Part shown: positions 19,862 to 52,383 of the stretch, one piece after another
How positions within the stretch are numbered: position 1 is the stretch's first letter
Layout of the letters: every line of letters starts with the position of its first letter
IMG/VR virus record: IMGVR_UViG_3300015199_000003
Coordinates: 1 to 57,410 of that record
DNA: 57,410 nt
Direction: 5' to 3' (one strand)
Source of the DNA: a virus
Notes under the pieces: generated by a model
Database searches by the model: none
What the model was told of the DNA's origin: nothing
Seen by the model: only the letters and a program-made list of their open reading frames with translations
Made by a program: the position numbers and the translations under genes

Positions 19862-21550
19862 ATGGCAGGCATCTTCCGACGCATGGTGGACGCACTTCGC
19901 GGACGCAATCCCGAAGCCGATCGCGTGCGCGAACAGAAGCGCAATCTGCATACCGAAATTCGGGGCATGCATGCCAAGGTGGATGCGGCCAGCTCGGACG
20001 AATTCAGCAAGCGATTATGGCGCGATGCCGACTCGCTTGGACCAAACGCGGCCTTCAACCAAGGCGTCCGCCAGAAGGCTCGCGATCGGGCCCGGCTCGA
20101 ATTCGTCAACAACAACTACGCGCGCGGGATGGTTCGCACCAGCGCTTACGATCTGATCGGCACCTGCCCGCGCCTGCAACTGAGCATTCCCGGTGACAAA
20201 TCGGGCGCGATGGCCAAGAAGATCGAGCGGAGTTTCGCGCGCTGGGGAAAAGCCGTCGGTCTCGGGCTCAAGTACCGGCTGATGGAAAAAGCCAACGGCC
20301 ATAGCGGCGGCGCAATCGCGCTTTTGCAAACCAATCCGGAAATCAATCACAAGGTGAAGCTCGATCTTCGATTGATCGAGATCGAGAGAAATCAAACGCC
20401 CTGGGACAAGCTGACCGATCCGACGATCTGGGACGGCATCAAGGTCGACGAGCACGGGAACCATGTCGAGTATTATTTCCTGCGCTATCACCCGGGCGAA
20501 TGGCGCGGGCTCGTTGCCATGACGATCGCCGGCGTGTTCGACACCGTGGCCGCCCGCAATGTGATTCATTGGTACGAACAAGATCGCTGCGATCAGTGGC
20601 ACGGCATTCCAAAAATTTCGGCATCGCTGCCGCTCTTCTCGCAACTCCGCCGCTACACGCTGGCCACACTGACCGCTGCCGAATTCGCGGCAATGCTCGC
20701 CGGCATCATGAAGACGAATCTGCCGCCGGCCAGCGGCGTCGCGCAGGAAGTGGACAACTGGAGCTTCTTCGAGCTGGTTCGCGGCGCTTTGATGAGCTTG
20801 CCTGAAGGATGGGAGGCCACCCAATTCGACGCCAAGCAGCCGACGACGACCTATCCGCAGTTCAAATCCGAGCTGTTGGCGGAGTGCGGGCGCGGCTCAG
20901 GAACTCCGCTCAATGTTGTGTCGGGCAGCTCGAAAGACATGAACTACAGTTCGGGCCGTCTCGACCATGTCCCATACCACCGCGAGAAGCGCATCGACCG
21001 GTTCGACTTCGAATCCATCGTCGCGGATCGAGTCCTGAGCGCGTGGGAGCAAGAGGCCCGCTTCGTCGATGAAGTTCCGCTCGACGCGCCCGCCATTGAG
21101 GAATGGAGTTGGAGTTGGAACTATGACGGCTTCGAGGGGATCGACCAGCAGAAAGACGCCAATGCCGACGACATCCGTCTAAAGAACGGCACCAGCACAC
21201 TGAAAGAAATCCTTGCCGAGTATGGGCAGGATGTTTACGAGCACATGGACCAGCTCGCCAAGGAGCGCGACTACGCGATCTCCAAAGGCTTGCCCTGGCC
21301 GATGCTGTTCAGCGCTCCCATTCCTTCCGGTCAACCTGACCAGGCTCCTGACGAGGCTCCCGATCAGAACGCCGATCCCAAAGCGCAAAGCAGGCTCCTC
21401 GACGCGCTCACTGAAAACGGCATCTCTGAAACCGTCGCCGAAATGGTTGTCGCCGAATTCTTCGCGATGCCAGCTCCCCGGCCGAGCACTCCGAAGCCAA
21501 GCCGCAATGGGTTTCACCGCAACGGTCATTACGCAGGAGGTCGATCATGA
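19862..21550 (+). CDS. Portal protein (lambda family)
   Basis: A 562-residue protein. ARDRARLEFVNNNYARGMVR near 75 begins the portal core, with NVIHWYEQDRCDQWHGIPKI near 237 and GTPLNVVSGSSKDMNYSSGR near 350 being typical of lambda-type portals. The C-terminal 80 residues are Pro/Asp-rich with a final helix. Twelve copies form the ring through which DNA passes and on which the procapsid starts. It overlaps the protease gene by ATGA. Confidence 0.92.
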   Translation: MAGIFRRMVDALRGRNPEADRVREQKRNLHTEIRGMHAKVDAASSDEFSKRLWRDADSLGPNAAFNQGVRQKARDRARLEFVNNNYARGMVRTSAYDLIGTCPRLQLSIPGDKSGAMAKKIERSFARWGKAVGLGLKYRLMEKANGHSGGAIALLQTNPEINHKVKLDLRLIEIERNQTPWDKLTDPTIWDGIKVDEHGNHVEYYFLRYHPGEWRGLVAMTIAGVFDTVAARNVIHWYEQDRCDQWHGIPKISASLPLFSQLRRYTLATLTAAEFAAMLAGIMKTNLPPASGVAQEVDNWSFFELVRGALMSLPEGWEATQFDAKQPTTTYPQFKSELLAECGRGSGTPLNVVSGSSKDMNYSSGRLDHVPYHREKRIDRFDFESIVADRVLSAWEQEARFVDEVPLDAPAIEEWSWSWNYDGFEGIDQQKDANADDIRLKNGTSTLKEILAEYGQDVYEHMDQLAKERDYAISKGLPWPMLFSAPIPSGQPDQAPDEAPDQNADPKAQSRLLDALTENGISETVAEMVVAEFFAMPAPRPSTPKPSRNGFHRNGHYAGGRS

Positions 21551-37323: not shown

Positions 37324-38298
37324 ATGGAAAACAGATTCATCGCATGCATCGAAAAGCGGCTGCCGGCCAACCTGCTCGTTGCGGCGGCGGCAACGGCGGT
37401 CAAGCAGAACCCGACCAACCACCCGATTCTGGGCGGTCTATTGAAGCTGCTCGGTGGCCTGCTGCTGAACAAGCTCGGCGTTTCCGACCCGTCCAAAGCG
37501 AGCGACGTGATACCGGTTCTGACCCCGGAAGATCTGGCGCTGCTCACGACGAAGTATTGGGGGGCCAAGGGCGTTACGCTTACCGTCGGTTTCCCGTTTG
37601 ACAGCACGCCAAGCGACCTGCAAAGCCGCATCCTGCTGCACATGAACGCGTGGGGTGATTTTGCCAATGTCAAGTTTGCGCTCACCAACACCGACCCGCA
37701 AGTCCGCATCACGCGCGCTGGCGATGGCTATTGGTCCTACCTCGGGACCGACATTCTCCACATCCCGGCCAATGAGCCGACGATGACGCTGCAAGACTTC
37801 ACGATGAGCACGCCGGAGAGCGAGTTCCATCGCGTCGTTCGTCATGAGACCGGCCATACGCTCGGTTTCGCTCACGAGCACATGCGCAAGGAGATCGTCA
37901 GCCGTCTCGACCCGACCAAGACGATGATTTATTTCATGCAGACGCAGGGCTGGAGCCCGACCGAGATTCAGCAACAAGTGCTAACTCCACTTGATGAATC
38001 GACGCTGAAGGGGACCGCGCACGCCGATCAAGATTCGATCATGGCCTACCAGCTTCCCGGCAGCATCACCACGGATGGACAGCCGATTCGCGGCGGCCTC
38101 GACATCGACGACATGGACAAGGCTTTCGCGGCAACGTTGTATCCACTCGCCGTCGCGCCGATTGTTGTCCCGAATCCGCCTCCGGTCGTCAATCCGCCGA
38201 CGCCGGCAGTGACGGGCAAGATCCGCGTTACCGTGCTCGCCAATGCGGATGGATCGTTCGCGGCCGTGGAGAGCATCGCGCCCGTCGCGGACTCCTGA
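37324..38298 (+). CDS. Metzincin zinc protease (astacin/M12A-like)
   Basis: A 324-residue protein. HETGHTLGFAHEH at about 174-186 is the extended metzincin site HExxHxxGxxHE, and SIMAYQ near 238 is the Met-turn. The N-terminal 55 residues are hydrophobic (LLVAAAATAVK, ILGGLLKLLGGLLLNKL) and may be a membrane or pro-region. The C-terminal Pro-rich tail follows residue 270. No classical signal peptide is evident. Planctomycetes have thin or unusual walls with much surface protein, so a protease could serve entry or release in place of a peptidoglycan lysin; that is inference. Confidence 0.85.
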   Translation: MENRFIACIEKRLPANLLVAAAATAVKQNPTNHPILGGLLKLLGGLLLNKLGVSDPSKASDVIPVLTPEDLALLTTKYWGAKGVTLTVGFPFDSTPSDLQSRILLHMNAWGDFANVKFALTNTDPQVRITRAGDGYWSYLGTDILHIPANEPTMTLQDFTMSTPESEFHRVVRHETGHTLGFAHEHMRKEIVSRLDPTKTMIYFMQTQGWSPTEIQQQVLTPLDESTLKGTAHADQDSIMAYQLPGSITTDGQPIRGGLDIDDMDKAFAATLYPLAVAPIVVPNPPPVVNPPTPAVTGKIRVTVLANADGSFAAVESIAPVADS

Positions 38299-42609: not shown

Positions 42610-43200
42610 ATGCTCTTGGCTCTTTCGACTGGCGATCCGATCTGGGACGTGCTGACCGCGATCCTCGCTTCGGTGATAGGGGCGGGCGGCGCGGCAAAAA
42701 TCGTCGCCAAGTTCCGAGGACTGCTCCGCGAGATCGGCCGCGCGATGGAAGTCTCTGCGCGGATCGATGCGCTGGAGCAAAAATTCGCGAAGTACGAACA
42801 AGAAGATGCGATCCAAAAACTGATCTATTTTGGCTTCCTTGAGGCCGGCGAAGAAGCTTGCATAATCGCGAACGAGCAGGGCAAGACCGTCTTAATCTCG
42901 CCAGCGCTCGCGAAGCTGATGGGGGTCTCCAACGAAGAAGCGACGAATGGCGCGTGGAAAGACGTATTGCATCCCGAAGATAAAAGCAAAGTGCTGATCG
43001 CCTGGGATGGGTTTGTGCAGGGCGCTTTACAGTGGCTGACGCTCTCGTTTCGGTTCCTCACGCCATCGGGCAGAATCGTGCCGGTAGTGATGAAGGCCGT
43101 TCGCAAGAAGATCGTCCAGGGCGGCGTGATGCGGATTGTCGGGCTGGTTTGGCGTCAAGATTCTGCGCCTCCGAAGGTGCCCGACACCGCGACTTCTTAA
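42610..43200 (+). CDS. PAS-domain protein
   Basis: A 196-residue protein. Residues 10-30 are a moderately hydrophobic helix, 30-70 a coiled coil (ARIDALEQKFAKYEQEDAIQ), and 72-185 a PAS domain: ACIIANEQGKTVLISPALAK, LMGVSNEEATNGAWKDVLHP and FLTPSGRIVPVVMKAVRKKI. No kinase, cyclase or DNA-binding part is attached, so it is a stand-alone sensor or adaptor. Phages seldom carry PAS domains. It could sense redox or oxygen, which would fit the haem-protein pair nearby, but this is speculative. Confidence 0.8.
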   Translation: MLLALSTGDPIWDVLTAILASVIGAGGAAKIVAKFRGLLREIGRAMEVSARIDALEQKFAKYEQEDAIQKLIYFGFLEAGEEACIIANEQGKTVLISPALAKLMGVSNEEATNGAWKDVLHPEDKSKVLIAWDGFVQGALQWLTLSFRFLTPSGRIVPVVMKAVRKKIVQGGVMRIVGLVWRQDSAPPKVPDTATS

Positions 43201-44046: not shown

Positions 44047-44259
44047 CAACTCGGCCGACGCCGCGAGATGATGCGACCACGCCGGCAGAGGTCTGTATTG
44101 ACCGATCAGTCCGTGTTTGATTACCATTTCGAACGTACCCACGAAACGCGAAAGTACCCACATTTTTCCAGCCGATCGCGGCGGATCAGGTGAGTGAATT
44201 CGCGGGAAATCCCTGAAGATATCGAGTTTTCTCGGCGTTTGATCGACGCGCTTTGCCTG

Positions 44260-44302
44260 CCTTCGGAACCGAAGGTTACAGGTTCGACTCCTGTGGGGCG
44301 TA
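44260..44302 (+). other. Candidate phage attachment site (attP), tRNA-Arg 3' half
   Basis: The sequence reads as the 3' half of a tRNA: anticodon loop CTTCGGA (44261-44267, anticodon TCG), 3' anticodon strand ACCGA, variable loop AGGTT, T-arm ACAGG-TTCGACT-CCTGT (44278-44294) and acceptor strand GGGGCGT plus A. There is no matching 5' half upstream, as expected of attP. It lies 120 bases before the integrase gene in the same direction. Integration here would rebuild a complete tRNA-Arg(TCG) gene. The anticodon stem contains the palindrome CCTTCGG-AA-CCGAAGG. Confidence 0.65.
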
Positions 44303-44421
44303 TTGATCGTAAACCGTGCCGAGACTGGGATTTCCGGATTGCCGCTCAGGAAGAGCGGTCGGCCAACCTGGCCGGGATTGTGGGTACGCATACCCGCGCT
44401 CTCGGCATGGAGGCCGTTCCG

Positions 44422-45732
44422 ATGGTTCATCCACTTCGCGTTCCCAAGCTCCGTTTTCACGCTCCAACCAAGCAACACTACATCTATCTCGGCAAAGGAC
44501 AGGGCAGAAAGTATTTCGGCCGCGACCTGGTCGAGGCTGAGCGGCAATATGGGATTTGGAAGGCGCGGCACATTCTGGCGGGGCCCGGCGCGGCGCCGGC
44601 GATCCAGGCCGGGGACCAAACCATCACGGTCTCAGAAGCGGTCGTCGCCTACCTCCGGCACGCCGACAACTACTATCGAGATCCGCGCGACATCAACCGC
44701 GTCGGCCACGCGATGGCCGTCGTCATGGACGAATTCGGGGCGCTGCCTGTCGGTGAATTCAAATCGAAGGCCCTCAAGCATATCCAAGCCAAGCTGATCG
44801 AACGGCCGGTGATGCGGCGCTTCAAGGCGGGAACCAAGGCAACCGCAACGAAGATCAGCCGCAAATACGCGAACAAGCTCCTCGTTGACGTCGTTCATTG
44901 CTGGCAATGGCTCGTCAGTGAAGAGGTCGTTCCCCCGGAGAACCTGCACGCGATGGAGACGGTGACCCTCATCCACCTTGGCCGGGGCGGCCGCGAGACT
45001 CCACGCGTTCCGCCGGTCGCCCCAGAGGTTGTCGAGGCCACGCTCGCCTATTGCCCTTCGCTGCTCGCAACGATGATTCAAGTCCAACGTCTTACCGGCA
45101 TGAGGCCCGGGGAACTGTGCCGAATGCGTCGATGCGACATCTCGCTTCATCCAAAGGAACGATTGTCGATGCCCGGCATGGAGGATTGGCGGGTGTCGGC
45201 GATGGAGTCGGGGGCCGTGCTCTGCTGGGTCTATGCGCCATCGAAGCACAAGAACCTTCACCGCGGCCAGCCGCGCGCCGTGCTGATCGGCCCGCGCGCC
45301 CAAGAGCTTTTGCGTCCGCTGCTCGATGGGAGGACGGGGGAGGATCATATCTTCGTCCCGCGCGAATCGATGCAGGCATGGCGAGCGATTCAGCGCGAGA
45401 GCCGAAAGACTCGAGTCCAGCCATCCCAAAAGAACCGGGCCAAGCGCCATCCAAGAAAGGGGGCTGGCGATCTCTACCCGGTCAACAGCTACGCCCAGGC
45501 GGTCGAACGCGCGATTGCCCGCGCGAATAAAGCGCGAGCCAAGGAAGGATTGGAGCTTCTACCCAAATGGCGGCCCAACCAGCTCCGCCATTCGGCCGCC
45601 ACGTCGGCAAGCGAGCGCTTCGATGAAACGCACGCGGCGGCAATGCTCGGCCATGCTGGACTCGATGCGGTCCGGATTTATGCCGAACAAGCGCTCGGCA
45701 AAGCGGCAAAGACGGCCGCCGAACTTGGATAG
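44422..45732 (+). CDS. int: Tyrosine integrase
   Basis: A 436-residue site-specific recombinase. The N-terminal part (about 1-130) is a SAM-like core-binding domain; the catalytic part has TGMRPGELCRM (first Arg), PNQLRHSAAT (second Arg region, with Asn where a His is more common) and LGHAGLDAVRIYAEQ (His and the Tyr nucleophile). The start at 44422 follows GGAGG by eight bases. The same frame is open back to 44194, but that stretch translates a tRNA half (the peptide contains VTGSTPVGR, typical of misread T-arms), so it is not coding. Confidence 0.9.
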   Translation: MVHPLRVPKLRFHAPTKQHYIYLGKGQGRKYFGRDLVEAERQYGIWKARHILAGPGAAPAIQAGDQTITVSEAVVAYLRHADNYYRDPRDINRVGHAMAVVMDEFGALPVGEFKSKALKHIQAKLIERPVMRRFKAGTKATATKISRKYANKLLVDVVHCWQWLVSEEVVPPENLHAMETVTLIHLGRGGRETPRVPPVAPEVVEATLAYCPSLLATMIQVQRLTGMRPGELCRMRRCDISLHPKERLSMPGMEDWRVSAMESGAVLCWVYAPSKHKNLHRGQPRAVLIGPRAQELLRPLLDGRTGEDHIFVPRESMQAWRAIQRESRKTRVQPSQKNRAKRHPRKGAGDLYPVNSYAQAVERAIARANKARAKEGLELLPKWRPNQLRHSAATSASERFDETHAAAMLGHAGLDAVRIYAEQALGKAAKTAAELG

Positions 45733-47181: not shown

Positions 47182-47538
47182 TTACTTCTTACGGGCTGCG
47201 ATTTTGCTGCCGACAAGAAACACCGAGCCGATCAAGGCGATGCCGAGCCCGAAGAAGGCCGAAATCACATCTCGCAGCGCGAGCGCGTAGAGCGTGAACG
47301 ATGCGCCGCCAACAATGAGGATGCCGCCAGCGAGGGCTATTCCACTACCAGACCATCGCGGCTTCGCGGATTGAGAAGTTTGGGCGGTCGGCGTGCCAGA
47401 TGGTTTCAGATTGTCGAGCGGAAGGAATTGCTCATTGCAGTGAGCGCAGCACCATTCCGCCATGAGGTTGCTCCCATGCACAGACATGGTCTGAGAACAT
47501 GCAGGGCAAGCGACGCGAACCATTCCGGATTCGGACAT
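47182..47538 (-). CDS. Zinc-ribbon membrane protein
   Basis: A 118-residue protein. Residues 8-40 carry CPACSQTM and CCAHCNEQF, a zinc ribbon; two transmembrane helices follow (about 66-90 and 93-110). It is the last gene of the minus-strand module-1 operon. Such ribbon-plus-helix proteins are common in planctomycetes. The long plus-strand frame across this region is a shadow. Confidence 0.72.
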   Translation of the reverse strand: MSESGMVRVACPACSQTMSVHGSNLMAEWCCAHCNEQFLPLDNLKPSGTPTAQTSQSAKPRWSGSGIALAGGILIVGGASFTLYALALRDVISAFFGLGIALIGSVFLVGSKIAARKK

Positions 47539-47553
47539 TGCTCAAACTCCGGT

Positions 47554-48267
47554 CTATTTCTTATCGAGCTTCGCAAGCCTCTCGCGGGCCTTCTTTGCGG
47601 CCATCGTATCCGGGTACTTCTCGATCAATTCGAGCAAGTGGATGCGAGCGGTGATTTTGTCGTAGAGTCTCTGGGCTTCGACTTCGTCGCTGGCTTTCTT
47701 GGCGATGGCCGCTTCGGCGTCGGCTCTCTCTTTGGCGATTCGCTCGGCTTGAGCCTTGATCGCAGCCAGGCGAGCCGCTTCCTTGTCTTTCGCAATCCGG
47801 TCAGCTTCATCCTTCGTCTTCTGTTCCGGAGTTCGCTCGGCAAGTCGTTTTTCTTCGGCCGCTTTGCCATCAGTGATTTTCTTTTCCTTCTTCTGTGCAA
47901 ATTCCTTGATCGCAGCGTCAACCCATCTTTTGCGCTCGCCTTCCTTGAGAATCTTCCGCGCCTGGTCCTCGGTTATTCCGTATTTCGCGGCGATGTTTTT
48001 CAGCGCTTTTTCGTGACCTTCGCGGACATGCTCAACAAGATCTTTATCAGAGATGCCCGGCTTCGCTTCGCGCTGAGCCTCCATAAAGAGGCCGATTACG
48101 ATGGAATAATCGACGTAGAACTTTTTGCGGTTCGGCTCTGGGACCTCGGCCGCGACATCATCATCCTCGGCTTTGCCGCCAGTACCACCGTTCTGGCTTG
48201 TACCGCAAGCGCAGAGCATCGCGATGAAAATCGCCTGGATTCCGAAGCGTCGAATGATGGTGAACAC
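47554..48267 (-). CDS. Lipoprotein with coiled coil
   Basis: A 237-residue protein. MFTIIRRFGIQAIFIAMLCA with C at 21 is a lipoprotein signal (lipobox MLCAC). The mature part is Lys/Glu/Ala-rich with a coiled coil from about 90 to 205, ending in a ILELIEKYPDTMAAKKARER-like helical repeat. It would be anchored in the cytoplasmic or outer membrane facing the periplasm. Exposed lipoproteins are typical superinfection-exclusion factors in other phages. It is in the RHH-headed operon. Confidence 0.75.
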   Translation of the reverse strand: MFTIIRRFGIQAIFIAMLCACGTSQNGGTGGKAEDDDVAAEVPEPNRKKFYVDYSIVIGLFMEAQREAKPGISDKDLVEHVREGHEKALKNIAAKYGITEDQARKILKEGERKRWVDAAIKEFAQKKEKKITDGKAAEEKRLAERTPEQKTKDEADRIAKDKEAARLAAIKAQAERIAKERADAEAAIAKKASDEVEAQRLYDKITARIHLLELIEKYPDTMAAKKARERLAKLDKK

Positions 48268-48288: not shown

Positions 48289-48666
48289 CTAACGGCCATA
48301 CCTGAAAACCACAAAAAGTATAAACGCGAGAATAGCGGCCACCGTAAAAATGCAGCCGGCCAAATTCTCGCCGAGTCCTTTTCCAAAGCCGAATCCGAAT
48401 CCAGTCGAGAAGCTGTTTTCGACCCGATGGACGTTGCGCACGGTTCGCGGCGCGGGATCGTCGTCGAACTCGAAGTCAACCGCCTGCATGGGAAGCGGTT
48501 GAATGATCGGAGCCGGGCGGACGGGGATCGGCTCTGGTGGTGCCACGTGGTCAGACGGTCGAAGCGGCCCGCGACAAGTCGGGCAAATGGTATCGACCGT
48601 CAGGAATCGCGGATCGACTTGCATCCGGCCTTGGCAGTGGGGGCACTGAACAATAACGGGGTTCAT
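48289..48666 (-). CDS. Zinc-ribbon protein with C-terminal membrane helix
   Basis: A 125-residue protein. MNPVIVQCPHCQGRMQVDPR and TICPTCRGPL make one ribbon; a Pro-rich linker and a Gly/Phe-rich segment follow, and the C-terminus (AGCIFTVAAILAFILFVVFR) is a transmembrane helix. Start chosen at MNPV, where the typical ribbon opening lies. It begins two bases after the RHH stop, so the two are translated together. Confidence 0.7.
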   Translation of the reverse strand: MNPVIVQCPHCQGRMQVDPRFLTVDTICPTCRGPLRPSDHVAPPEPIPVRPAPIIQPLPMQAVDFEFDDDPAPRTVRNVHRVENSFSTGFGFGFGKGLGENLAGCIFTVAAILAFILFVVFRYGR

Positions 48667-48668
48667 GT

Positions 48669-48872
48669 TTACCGTTTTGGTTTTGGCTTGGGGCTGGCTT
48701 GGACCTCTGCACGAAGCCGCGCGCGTTCGGCCTGCGACTGGAGCATGAACTTGTTGAGGGCGTACCGAATCCAATTGGAGAGATCCATCCCGTTCTCTTC
48801 CGCCTCAAGCCGCCATTGCTCAATCGAATCGGAAGGCGCTTGTAGGTCTATTCGGTTCTTCGTCTTGGACAT
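48669..48872 (-). CDS. Ribbon-helix-helix regulator, long form (module 1)
   Basis: A 67-residue protein. RIDLQAPSDSIEQWRLEAEE and NGMDLSNWIRYALNKFM give the beta strand plus two helices of an RHH (Arc/MetJ-type) DNA-binding domain; a Gln/Arg/Glu helix and basic tail follow. It shares the WxxxAE(E/Q)xGxxLSxWIR pattern with three other proteins at 49066, 50031 and 50407. It heads the minus-strand operon with three envelope proteins, and would repress both divergent promoters. Confidence 0.8.
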   Translation of the reverse strand: MSKTKNRIDLQAPSDSIEQWRLEAEENGMDLSNWIRYALNKFMLQSQAERARLRAEVQASPKPKPKR

Positions 48873-48968
48873 TGACGGCATTTCCAAAGTAGCGATCACG
48901 GTAATTCTCCGGGTCTGTTACGGAAAGCGTACACAGGTTATTCGTCCAAAGCGATACAGGATATTTGC

Positions 48969-49038
48969 GGGAAATTCCCGGTTCTGATACAAAATCAGAA
49001 AATAGCGCTTGACAAGATCCGGGCTAGACCCGTATATT
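48969..49038. promoter_or_regulatory. Divergent control region of module 1
   Basis: On the plus strand TTGACA (49009-49014) and TATATT (49033-49038) are 18 bases apart. CGGGAA-A-TTCCCG (48969-48981) is a perfect palindrome and TTCTGAT-ACAAA-ATCAGAA (48982-49000) another, both placed between the divergent genes. They are candidate operators of the RHH proteins. The minus-strand promoter could not be placed with confidence. Confidence 0.6.
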
Positions 49039-49065
49039 TCCCGTGTCTCATATGGAGCCAATCGG

Positions 49066-49221
49066 ATGAACCAGACAGCGTTAAAGCAGCGGGTGGAAGT
49101 GCAGGCCGACAAGAAGCATGTCGATTCGTGGAAGAAAGCCGCCGAGCAAAACGGCCAAGATCTGACGAATTGGATTCGCTCGACCCTCATCCGTGCCGCG
49201 AAAGAATGCGCAAAGAAGTGA
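49066..49221 (+). CDS. Ribbon-helix-helix regulator, short form (module 1)
   Basis: A 51-residue RHH protein with GGAG nine bases before the ATG: KQRVEVQADKKHVDSWKKAA, then EQNGQDLTNWIRSTLIR. It matches the minus-strand neighbour in its WIR core but lacks the long tail. The downstream duplicated block begins at its stop codon. Confidence 0.78.
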   Translation: MNQTALKQRVEVQADKKHVDSWKKAAEQNGQDLTNWIRSTLIRAAKECAKK

Positions 49222-49456
49222 ACCATTAACGGGGCAGCGCTGGACGCTCAAGGGTAAACGAAGGAACGCCCGGCTGCTGCCCCACCAAACAAGGAATCGA
49301 CCGATGATCGCTTTCCTGATTATTCTCGCGGTCTGCATGCCGCTCACCTACCTGCTCACGCGGTTGATCTACCGCGACTGGCGCGACTGGAATGATTGGT
49401 GCGAGAAGCATGAGGCTCGTGGTCGCGAAGCTCGCCGGGTTGATGCCCTGATCGGA
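49216..49456 (+). repeat. Duplicated block, copy 1 (leader plus small membrane gene)
   Basis: This 241-base block is about 91% identical (roughly 21 differences by hand count) to 50560-50801. Both copies begin at the stop codon of a short RHH gene and end inside the same codon region of a small membrane gene (CTGATCGGA). Both hold a leader with the stem GGGGCAGC...GCTGCCCC enclosing about 37 bases. Copy 1 ends abruptly against the 3' side of a minus-strand gene. Confidence 0.9.
49304..49456 (+). pseudogene. Small membrane protein, copy 1, natural C-terminus lost
   Basis: MIAFLIILAVCMPLTYLLTR and the WCEKHEARGREARRVDALIG end match the intact copy at 50649 with only three amino-acid changes, but the last seven residues (LMKDKRY) are missing. 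The frame instead runs on to 49879 through the antisense of a secreted-protein gene. It may still give a working membrane helix with a junk tail. Most base changes from copy 2 are at third codon positions, so the protein was under selection for some time after duplication. Confidence 0.75.
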
Positions 49457-50028
49457 CCGCCAACGGGCCCGGCTCCGGATGCCGGGAATCTCCTTATGCC
49501 CTCCAAGAGAACCTCATCCGCGGTGAGGATCTCGATCGCTTTGAAGGAATCGACCGCGAGCCAATTCTTTTGGTCGCCGATGCCCTGGGGCCCGAATTTG
49601 CCAACGGCTTCGAATTCCCATTTGAATGGCTCGACCTTGGGCGCTTCAAGCTGCGCTACTTCCTTTTTCTTCTTCGAAACGATCTTAGCCCCAGGGACTG
49701 CTTGGAGTGTGAATTCGCCGCGCTCAAACGACTTGACCTCAAATTCGCCATCGAAACCGATGGGCTCGTTTGCGTCGATTCCTTTGGTCGGAATTCCTTT
49801 GACAACGAATGCGAAGCCAGTCGAGCGGAGAACGCTTGCCCGAAGCGAGTTTTCGGACAGAACTTTGTCGCAAGCATAGCTGATGTCGCTGAGCGGTCCC
49901 TTGGTGCCGACAACGAATTTGTAAACGAAGGCGTTTGTCGCCGATCGAAACGCGGGGCCAATCGGCCGCGGGTCATCCGCCGAACAAACCGCCGCGGTCA
50001 ACAAGAAAATGAATGCAGCAGTTGGCAT
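49369..50028 (-). CDS. Secreted protein of module 2, 3' end replaced
   Basis: A 219-residue frame. MPTAAFIFLLTAAVCSADDP is a signal peptide. The middle (SYACDKVLSENSLRASVLRS, FDGEFEVKSFERGEFTLQAV) is beta-rich with no known family. From about residue 190 onward the frame reads the antisense of the duplicated block, so its true C-terminus was cut off when copy 1 was joined here (junction near 49457). It starts two bases after the RHH stop, as in module 1. Confidence 0.65.
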   Translation of the reverse strand: MPTAAFIFLLTAAVCSADDPRPIGPAFRSATNAFVYKFVVGTKGPLSDISYACDKVLSENSLRASVLRSTGFAFVVKGIPTKGIDANEPIGFDGEFEVKSFERGEFTLQAVPGAKIVSKKKKEVAQLEAPKVEPFKWEFEAVGKFGPQGIGDQKNWLAVDSFKAIEILTADEVLLEGIRRFPASGAGPVGGPIRASTRRASRPRASCFSHQSFQSRQSR

Positions 50029-50030
50029 GT

Positions 50031-50228
50031 CTACCTCTTTGTTCTTGGCGGCTCAGCTTCGCGGTCGAGCCGGGCCCGCTCGGCTCTTCCGATTCGCATC
50101 GCCGTGTTCAGGGTGTCCCGAATCCAAGCGGATAATGACAAGCCGCGCTCGGTGGCCTCATCTTCCCATTTGGCCTTCGTTGATTCAGGAACCCGAATTT
50201 CGACGCGCGTTTCGCCAGTCTTCGGCAT
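50031..50228 (-). CDS. Ribbon-helix-helix regulator, long form (module 2)
   Basis: A 65-residue RHH protein: ETRVEIRVPESTKAKWEDEA, TERGLSLSAWIRDTLNTAM and a tail RIGRAERARLDREAEPPRTK resembling the tail of the module-1 long form. It leads the minus-strand operon with the secreted protein. A good TATAAT on the minus strand lies at 50285-50290, before the gene. Confidence 0.8.
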   Translation of the reverse strand: MPKTGETRVEIRVPESTKAKWEDEATERGLSLSAWIRDTLNTAMRIGRAERARLDREAEPPRTKR

Positions 50229-50284
50229 AGCGAGGGTACTCAGTTGCACCGTAAATTCTCCGTACAAGGAAAGATCGTAGCACA

Positions 50285-50376
50285 ATTATATTCGGATACC
50301 ATCCCGCACTATTCCGTACGTTGTTAGGAATTTTGTCGGAATTGTTCTTGACGCGTTGTAACAATGAACGTACTCT
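50285..50376. promoter_or_regulatory. Divergent control region of module 2
   Basis: Plus strand: TTGACG (50348-50353), 17 bases, TACTCT (50371-50376). Minus strand: a TATAAT at 50285-50290 without a clear -35. Between them lie the repeated elements CCGTACGTTGTT (near 50313) and TCCGTACAAC (near 50378), and the small palindrome TTGTAACAA, which may be RHH binding sites. Confidence 0.55.
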
Positions 50377-50406
50377 GTCCGTACAACTGACGGAGAGGAA
50401 AGACAA

Positions 50407-50565
50407 ATGCCAGCGACAGCAGAGAAGAGAGTCGAATTGCGAACGAGCGATAAGCAATTGCGAGAGTGGCGACGCGCCGCCGAAGAACGCGGCCTCGGAC
50501 TATCCGCATGGATTCGCGACACACTCAACGCAAAAGCCCGTGAGCAACGACAAATAAGAAAGTGA
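50407..50565 (+). CDS. Ribbon-helix-helix regulator, short form (module 2)
   Basis: A 52-residue protein with GGAGAGGAAAG upstream. MPATAEKRVELRTSDKQLRE and the GLGLSAWIRDTLN core make an RHH domain; the GLxLSAWIRDTLN stretch is identical in spirit to the module-2 long form. Copy 2 of the duplicated block begins at its stop. Confidence 0.78.
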   Translation: MPATAEKRVELRTSDKQLREWRRAAEERGLGLSAWIRDTLNAKAREQRQIRK

Positions 50566-50801
50566 AACCATTAACGGGGCAGCGTCGGACGCTCAAGGGT
50601 AAACGAAGGAACGCCCGGCCGCTGCCCCACCAAACAAGGAACCGACCGATGATCGCCTTCCTGATCATTCTGGCAACCTGTATGCCGCTCACTTACTTGC
50701 TCACGCGGTTGATCTACCGCGACTGGCGGGAATGGAACGAGTGGTGTGAGAAGCACGAAGCTCGTGGTCGCGAAGCTCGCCGGGTTGATGCCCTGATCGG
50801 A
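50560..50801 (+). repeat. Duplicated block, copy 2 (leader plus intact small membrane gene)
   Basis: The second copy of the 49216-49456 block. The leader stem is GGGGCAGCG...CGCTGCCCC; one position that is G-U in copy 1 is G-C here, so pairing is kept. ACGAAGGAACG in the loop and CAAGGA before the ATG both carry the GGA core that CsrA recognises. Confidence 0.88.
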
Positions 50802-50825
50802 CTGATGAAGGACAAGAGGTATTGA
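50649..50825 (+). CDS. Small membrane protein, intact copy
   Basis: A 58-residue protein: one transmembrane helix (MIAFLIILATCMPLTYLLTR, 1-20), then WREWNEWCEKHEARGREARR and a basic end. The CAAGGA site before the ATG follows a conserved leader hairpin. It would sit in the membrane with its charged tail inside. Its association with RHH repressors suggests a product whose level must be limited. Confidence 0.75.
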   Translation: MIAFLIILATCMPLTYLLTRLIYRDWREWNEWCEKHEARGREARRVDALIGLMKDKRY

Positions 50826-52098: not shown

Positions 52099-52188
52099 TC
52101 CATCCCGGCGGGCCGCTTGTTGCGGCATGAAGTGGCCTCAATGTGTATGGCTGGCGCTTCACCGCCGGGGATTTTTCACGGAGGAAAC

Positions 52189-52383
52189 ATGCTCTGTCTC
52201 ACTCGAAAGATCGGTCAGGAAATCATCATCGACGGCAACATTGTGGTAACCATAGTGGCCGTGAAAGGTGATTCTGTGCGGATCGGCATAAGCGCCCCAA
52301 AAGAGACGCGCGTCGATCGCGCCGAAGTCCATGAAGCGCGGAAGCGCGGTTTCGATGGCGCTCAAGCCTGCGGAGAATCGTGA
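52189..52383 (+). CDS. csrA: Carbon storage regulator CsrA
   Basis: A 64-residue protein of full CsrA length. MLCLTRKIGQEIIIDGNIVV, then VKGDSVRIGISAPKETRVDR contains the conserved Leu4, Arg6 and the GISAPKE strand with Arg44, which bind the GGA motif of RNA. The strong ribosome site CACGGAGG in its own leader has the CsrA core (CANGGA), so it may regulate itself. Several phage genes have CAAGGA ribosome sites (13160, 42143, 50649), possible targets. CsrA would alter translation of host or phage messages after infection. Confidence 0.93.
   Translation: MLCLTRKIGQEIIIDGNIVVTIVAVKGDSVRIGISAPKETRVDRAEVHEARKRGFDGAQACGES

Follow-up and report, generated by a model that had tools for sequence, protein, structure and literature searches.

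Two adjacent gene modules in the window (the complete IMG/VR virus record IMGVR_UViG_3300015199_000003, 57,410 bp) each carry a divergent pair of genes for a long and a short ribbon-helix-helix (RHH) protein, and they are laid out like the immI region of Salmonella phage P22. The modules are a real and selected variant of that known plan and may also work like it. On balance, and by a modest degree, we think it probable that they are two tandem, separately addressed, autoregulated switches of the P22 immI type, driving envelope moron genes in a temperate-type planctomycete phage. To our knowledge, the control circuits of planctomycete phages are largely undescribed.

Layout of the modules and their cargo

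The region contains the following features:

47182-47538, minus strand: module A cargo 3, a zinc-ribbon protein of 118 aa with two hydrophobic segments
47554-48267, minus strand: module A cargo 2, a lipoprotein-like protein of 237 aa with a GTG start (lipobox LCAC, read by eye)
48289-48666, minus strand: module A cargo 1, a zinc-ribbon protein of 125 aa with a C-terminal transmembrane (TM) segment
48669-48872, minus strand: A-long, a putative RHH repressor of 67 aa with tail QAERARL (PHROG 'Arc-like repressor', E 0.005)
48873-49065: control region A, between A-long and A-short
49066-49221, plus strand: A-short, an RHH protein of 51 aa
49221-49457, plus strand: copy 1 of a 237-bp direct repeat (copy 2 at 50566-50802)
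49222-49303, plus strand: spacer A, with a hairpin (49231-49283)
49304-49457, plus strand: module A copy of the small membrane protein gene, 3' end lost, frame running to 49879
49369-50028, minus strand: module B cargo, a protein of 219 aa with a signal-peptide-like N-terminus
50031-50228, minus strand: B-long, a putative RHH repressor of 65 aa with tail RAERARL
50229-50406: control region B, 178 bp, between B-long and B-short
50407-50565, plus strand: B-short, an RHH protein of 52 aa
50566-50648, plus strand: spacer B, with a hairpin (50576-50628), near-identical to spacer A
50649-50825, plus strand: the intact small membrane protein gene, 58 aa, with one N-terminal hydrophobic segment and a charged tail

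This arrangement agrees with the original prediction, which had described two side-by-side divergent units, each with a minus-strand long RHH protein of 65-67 aa ending in a RAERARL-type tail and followed within two bases by exported or membrane proteins. The long/short pairs lie at 48669-49221 (A) and 50031-50565 (B), the tails read QAERARL in A and RAERARL in B, and the first cargo gene begins 2 nt after the long gene (48289-48666 in A, 49369-50028 in B). The plus-strand elements expected in each module, a short RHH gene (51-52 aa) and, beyond a spacer with a hairpin, the gene of a small membrane protein, were all found. Module A does carry envelope-type cargo as described, but the genes number three (48289-48666, 47554-48267, and 47182-47538) and not one.

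An envelope destination for the cargo, also proposed earlier, is supported at the sequence level by the predicted lipobox, the TM or hydrophobic segments, and the signal-peptide-like start. No relatives or family of known function were found for the cargo proteins; the secreted protein of module B matched no family and had no counterpart in 53 planctomycete genomes. The small membrane protein had no convincing relatives, and a match to it at L004 was spurious. The cargo most likely consists of envelope-altering moron genes, and a putative role of the products in superinfection exclusion is plausible.

The RHH proteins and their control regions

The four genes are the only strong RHH matches in the window, with E-values of 1e-16 to 1e-19 and the next match at 0.006, in an iterated profile built partly from these same four proteins. 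They align across the RHH core, and the best pair is identical at 22/42 positions. The motif WxxxAEExGxxLSxWIR, which was said to be in all four, holds exactly for two of them; AEQ and LT replace the corresponding residues in A-short, as ATE does in B-long, and the pattern common to all is WxxxA[ET][EQ]xGxxL[ST]xWIR. Matches to the PHROG Arc-like repressor family are weak for each of them (E 0.002-0.007), and Pfam RHH matches fall under the curated cut-offs (RHH_1 15.7 vs 20.5 bits; NikA-like 19 vs 27).

B-long alone among the four was modeled. AlphaFold gives it an RHH topology (pLDDT 91) with helices at residues 15-27 and 32-58, the second reaching through the RAERARL tail; the beta strand of such proteins forms only in the dimer. 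The nearest solved folds in Foldseek are CopG and Arc chains, with probability 0.99-1.00, rmsd of about 1 A, and a best E-value of 0.1, and the matches also include AtaR, TacA1, and VapB. We therefore place the proteins in the RHH (MetJ/Arc) superfamily by predicted fold and not by Pfam membership.

Two other functions were weighed for these proteins. The RHH proteins could be antitoxins, the toxin being either a cargo protein or the small membrane protein; we consider this very unlikely. RHH is the commonest antitoxin fold (the solved-fold matches include AtaR, TacA1, and VapB), and a single-TM small protein with an upstream hairpin bears a resemblance to type I membrane toxins. However, none of the neighboring genes belongs to a toxin family, there are two RHH genes per module, and the short RHH protein has little beyond the DNA-binding domain with which to contact a toxin. 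A search for toxin partners in place of the envelope genes, the outcome that would have made these ordinary antitoxins, found none beside the RHH genes, which makes ordinary antitoxins unlikely. The second function, as NikA/CopG-like accessory proteins in the relaxosome or partition system of a prophage that resembles a plasmid, would account for CopG as a top fold match and for a NikA-like match of B-long that is below the cut-off (E 0.0016). It is extremely improbable given that neither a relaxase nor ParA adjoins the RHH genes, that the window has an integrase gene (44194-45732), and that the RHH genes flank promoters.

RHH proteins read DNA through their beta strand (PMC3325190). At the contact positions, aligned with Arc, both A proteins have R-D/E-Q and both B proteins have R-E-R. 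The third residue is Q only in A-long and A-short among twenty-four aligned sequences, and R in 20/22 of the others. Three alignment columns group the proteins by module and two by length class, and the poorly resolved RHH tree establishes neither within-module nor within-class descent. As the contact residues are common within each module and different between A and B, they fit a scheme in which each long/short pair would act on one operator, with that of A differing from that of B.

Control region A contains a strong plus-strand promoter, TTGACA-18-TATATT (49009-49038), overlapped by an opposed -35 element, TTGTCA (49015). Palindromes lie at 48968-48980, 48982-49000, and 49020-49032, and operator-motif enrichment in this region was not above chance. 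Control region B has a promoter-like TTGACG-17-TACTCT on the plus strand (50348-50376) and a -10 element, TATAAT, on the minus strand (50290-50285). It also holds all copies in the 57-kb phage of the heptamer TCCGTAC, at 50259, 50313, and 50378. The last of these adjoins the plus-strand -10 box, while the copy at 50313 adjoins the minus-strand -35 position. Among 2862 overlapping windows of 178 bp, only two, both over region B, contain a 7-mer that occurs at least three times there and nowhere else. Because multiplicity alone was matched in 81/2000 shuffles, the weight of TCCGTAC rests on its uniqueness.

The repeat, the small membrane protein, and the hairpin spacer

Modules A and B are paralogous, since both carry the 237-bp repeat (92% identical), which begins at the stop codon of the short RHH gene and spans the hairpin spacer and the membrane protein gene. 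The fifty-one membrane-gene codons common to both copies differ by twelve silent and three replacement changes, with a fourth replacement at the junction. This excess of silent changes identifies the small membrane protein as a product under purifying selection. In the module A copy the original 3' end is missing beyond codon 51, and the frame continues antisense through the secreted-protein gene to 49879; conversely, the C-terminal ~30 residues of the secreted protein are the antisense of the module A membrane gene. This reading of one gene into the antisense of the other suggests that a deletion between two convergent genes (49304-50028) fused their ends.

The 'structured leader' of the original prediction stands as a real hairpin, with a 62-nt core that folds better than shuffled sequences on both strands (z of -3.2 to -3.6 on the plus strand and -3.5 to -4.2 on the minus strand). 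Over 86 nt, however, it is not extreme for this GC-rich phage: 14-20% of GC-matched windows fold equally well. The hairpin had no match in Rfam, and thus corresponds to no known RNA element there. With two copies available for covariation, the substitutions are compatible with the stem and none is compensatory. Copy B alone has a promoter-like minus-strand site (50676-50649) where the membrane gene begins; it matches at 9/12 positions. About 1.3 kb downstream of module B is a CsrA gene (52117-52383, plus strand; PF02599, E 4e-20). In the spacers, AAGGA occurs both in the loop and ahead of the membrane-gene start, and the phage CsrA could therefore act on the membrane-protein mRNA. The hairpin may belong to an antisense RNA, mark a site of processing, or be bound by this CsrA.

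We infer a mechanism in which two RHH proteins, one long (Mnt-like) and one short (Arc-like), would be expressed divergently and act on the control region that separates their genes. Leftward, the long repressor would be co-transcribed with the envelope genes; rightward, the short repressor would be co-transcribed, across the hairpin spacer, with the small membrane protein. The two repressors of one module would bind the same operator, either in competition or together, and modules A and B would be separately addressed, because both the recognition residues and the repeats differ between them. The cargo would be moron genes that alter the envelope and are active in the lysogen or at an early stage of infection. 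A more elaborate version makes the modules orthogonal switches in which long and short RHH proteins sit as mixed oligomers on one operator, and an antisense- or CsrA-bound hairpin gates a putative small membrane exclusion protein; this we regard as quite unlikely.

Wider occurrence, host, and comparison with known systems

We looked for the long/short pairing among planctomycete genomes, named phages, and viral contigs. At least eighty viral stretches matched a DNA pattern written for the RHH core, and seventy-one of those listed hold an RHH gene; among these listed matches, none of the seventy-one viral loci has a close divergent partner. RHH matches were present in 24/392 planctomycete genomes, none of them paired within 1.5 kb, and a scan of the genome collection with the RHH alignment gave no match. 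The expectation that such pairs recur elsewhere thus fails within this sample, as no close divergent pair was seen at the seventy-one other viral or the approximately thirty planctomycete RHH loci. One candidate for a second pair (L236) was rejected: its two RHH genes are separated by ~1 kb and an HNH-like gene, and so do not share a control region.

Two observations from this search concern RHH genes of other kinds. At L131 (G001:C478, 5611-8600) an RHH gene is followed on the same strand by membrane and exported proteins, without a divergent partner, and the contig also carries a portal relative. In addition, a recurrent viral protein with the RHH core VDKQVLIRASE..W..AAEKSG.TLSAWIRDSLNK and then a C-terminal cysteine motif is nearly identical across many contigs (L173, L180, L181, L194, L210, L242, and others).

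The solitary state of WIR-type RHH genes in phages, common as they are at the listed viral loci, and the unpaired genes of the twenty-four planctomycete genomes would also be expected if the window simply held two ordinary autoregulators of the solitary type, duplicated by chance beside unrelated morons and paired without joint function. That reading is rather unlikely, in our estimation: the pair is found twice, in paralogous modules, its recognition residues are common to each module and partly unique, and a motif is repeated in region B only. For the immI-like switches we counted the RHH fold, the weak PHROG matches, the confinement of TCCGTAC to region B, the Q residue of module A, the match in layout to P22, the presence of an integrase, the portal relatives in Planctomycetota, the overlapping promoters of region A, and the paralogy of the modules; against them we counted the absence of divergent pairing outside this phage at the loci searched and of an ant homologue among the module genes, the chance-level motif content of region A, the 81/2000 shuffles for region B, the poorly resolved RHH tree, and the cargo proteins without relatives.

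The window also contains terminase-like and portal-like genes and a tRNA-Leu. Portal relatives, with up to 45% identity, occur in 52/392 sampled Planctomycetota genomes, and for this reason a planctomycete host is likely. (Planctomycetota were picked for searching through an integrase alignment seeded with planctomycete-like variants, a choice that is not itself host evidence.) The portal (19862-21550, plus strand) and its relatives at loci L094-L123 represent a lineage in ~13% of the sampled Planctomycetota genomes, often in multiple copies, and so a widespread planctomycete prophage group. The terminase, used as a query for the nearest phage, gave remote matches only. Elsewhere on the plus strand are a protein whose N-terminus is hydrophobic and which has a PAS fold (42610-43200, E 8e-9), unusual in a phage, and an astacin-like metalloprotease (37324-38298, E 5e-6).

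Among known systems, the solitary CopG/Arc-like regulators (WIR type), many of them in phages and others in planctomycetes, have the same RHH core but are single genes or have same-strand neighbors, whereas the genes in the window form close divergent pairs. RHH antitoxins (AtaR, TacA, ParD, RelB) share the fold, but the RHH genes in the window have no toxin partner. The original prediction knew of no described system with such a layout. This was wrong, as the sieA-orf59a-mnt / arc-[sar]-ant arrangement of P22 matches closely. In P22 immI (NC_002371), sieA, orf59a, and mnt (83 aa, leftward) are separated from arc (53 aa, rightward) and then ant by a control region of 90 bp, in which opposed promoters overlap and the operators for Arc and Mnt lie, and the sar antisense RNA sits in the 68-nt gap between arc and ant. 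Mnt acts as repressor of arc and ant, Arc as repressor of mnt and moderator of ant, and the ant mRNA is the binding target of sar RNA (PMC11016777). SieA is an inner-membrane exclusion protein (PMC10883804), and among P22-like phages immI, or the 'ant moron', is a moron that changes rapidly (PMC2629481).

Gene order and orientation agree with immI, and lengths and spacing do so roughly. The window shares with immI a long and a short RHH gene that diverge from a common control region (here twice), the overlapping opposed promoter elements (region A), a membrane-protein gene beyond the long repressor on the same strand (the exclusion gene sieA in P22), and a short spacer after the short repressor (82-83 nt, against 68 nt). 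The P22 spacer encodes sar, and that of the window folds better on the antisense strand. Traceable similarity of the RHH proteins themselves to Arc and Mnt is mainly at the level of fold: B-short has 21% identity with Arc and 10% with Mnt, and Arc scores E 0.78 in a profile search, beside the weak PHROG Arc-like matches. Unlike P22, the window has two tandem modules with other cargo genes, control regions of 178-193 bp, and cargo 2 nt after the long repressor, where sieA has its own promoter. Arc and Mnt use separate operators, whereas the two repressors of each module in the window have contact residues in common. There is no ant or sieA homologue, and downstream of the short repressor is the 58-aa membrane protein, which has no family match. 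If the immI-like reading is true, the P22 plan built on Mnt and Arc is found again, doubled and with unrelated cargo, in a phage from a distant phylum, and envelope genes stand in for ant. Morons of the immI type would then be a general design, and the two modules would offer a naturally occurring pair of small repressors with separate addresses.
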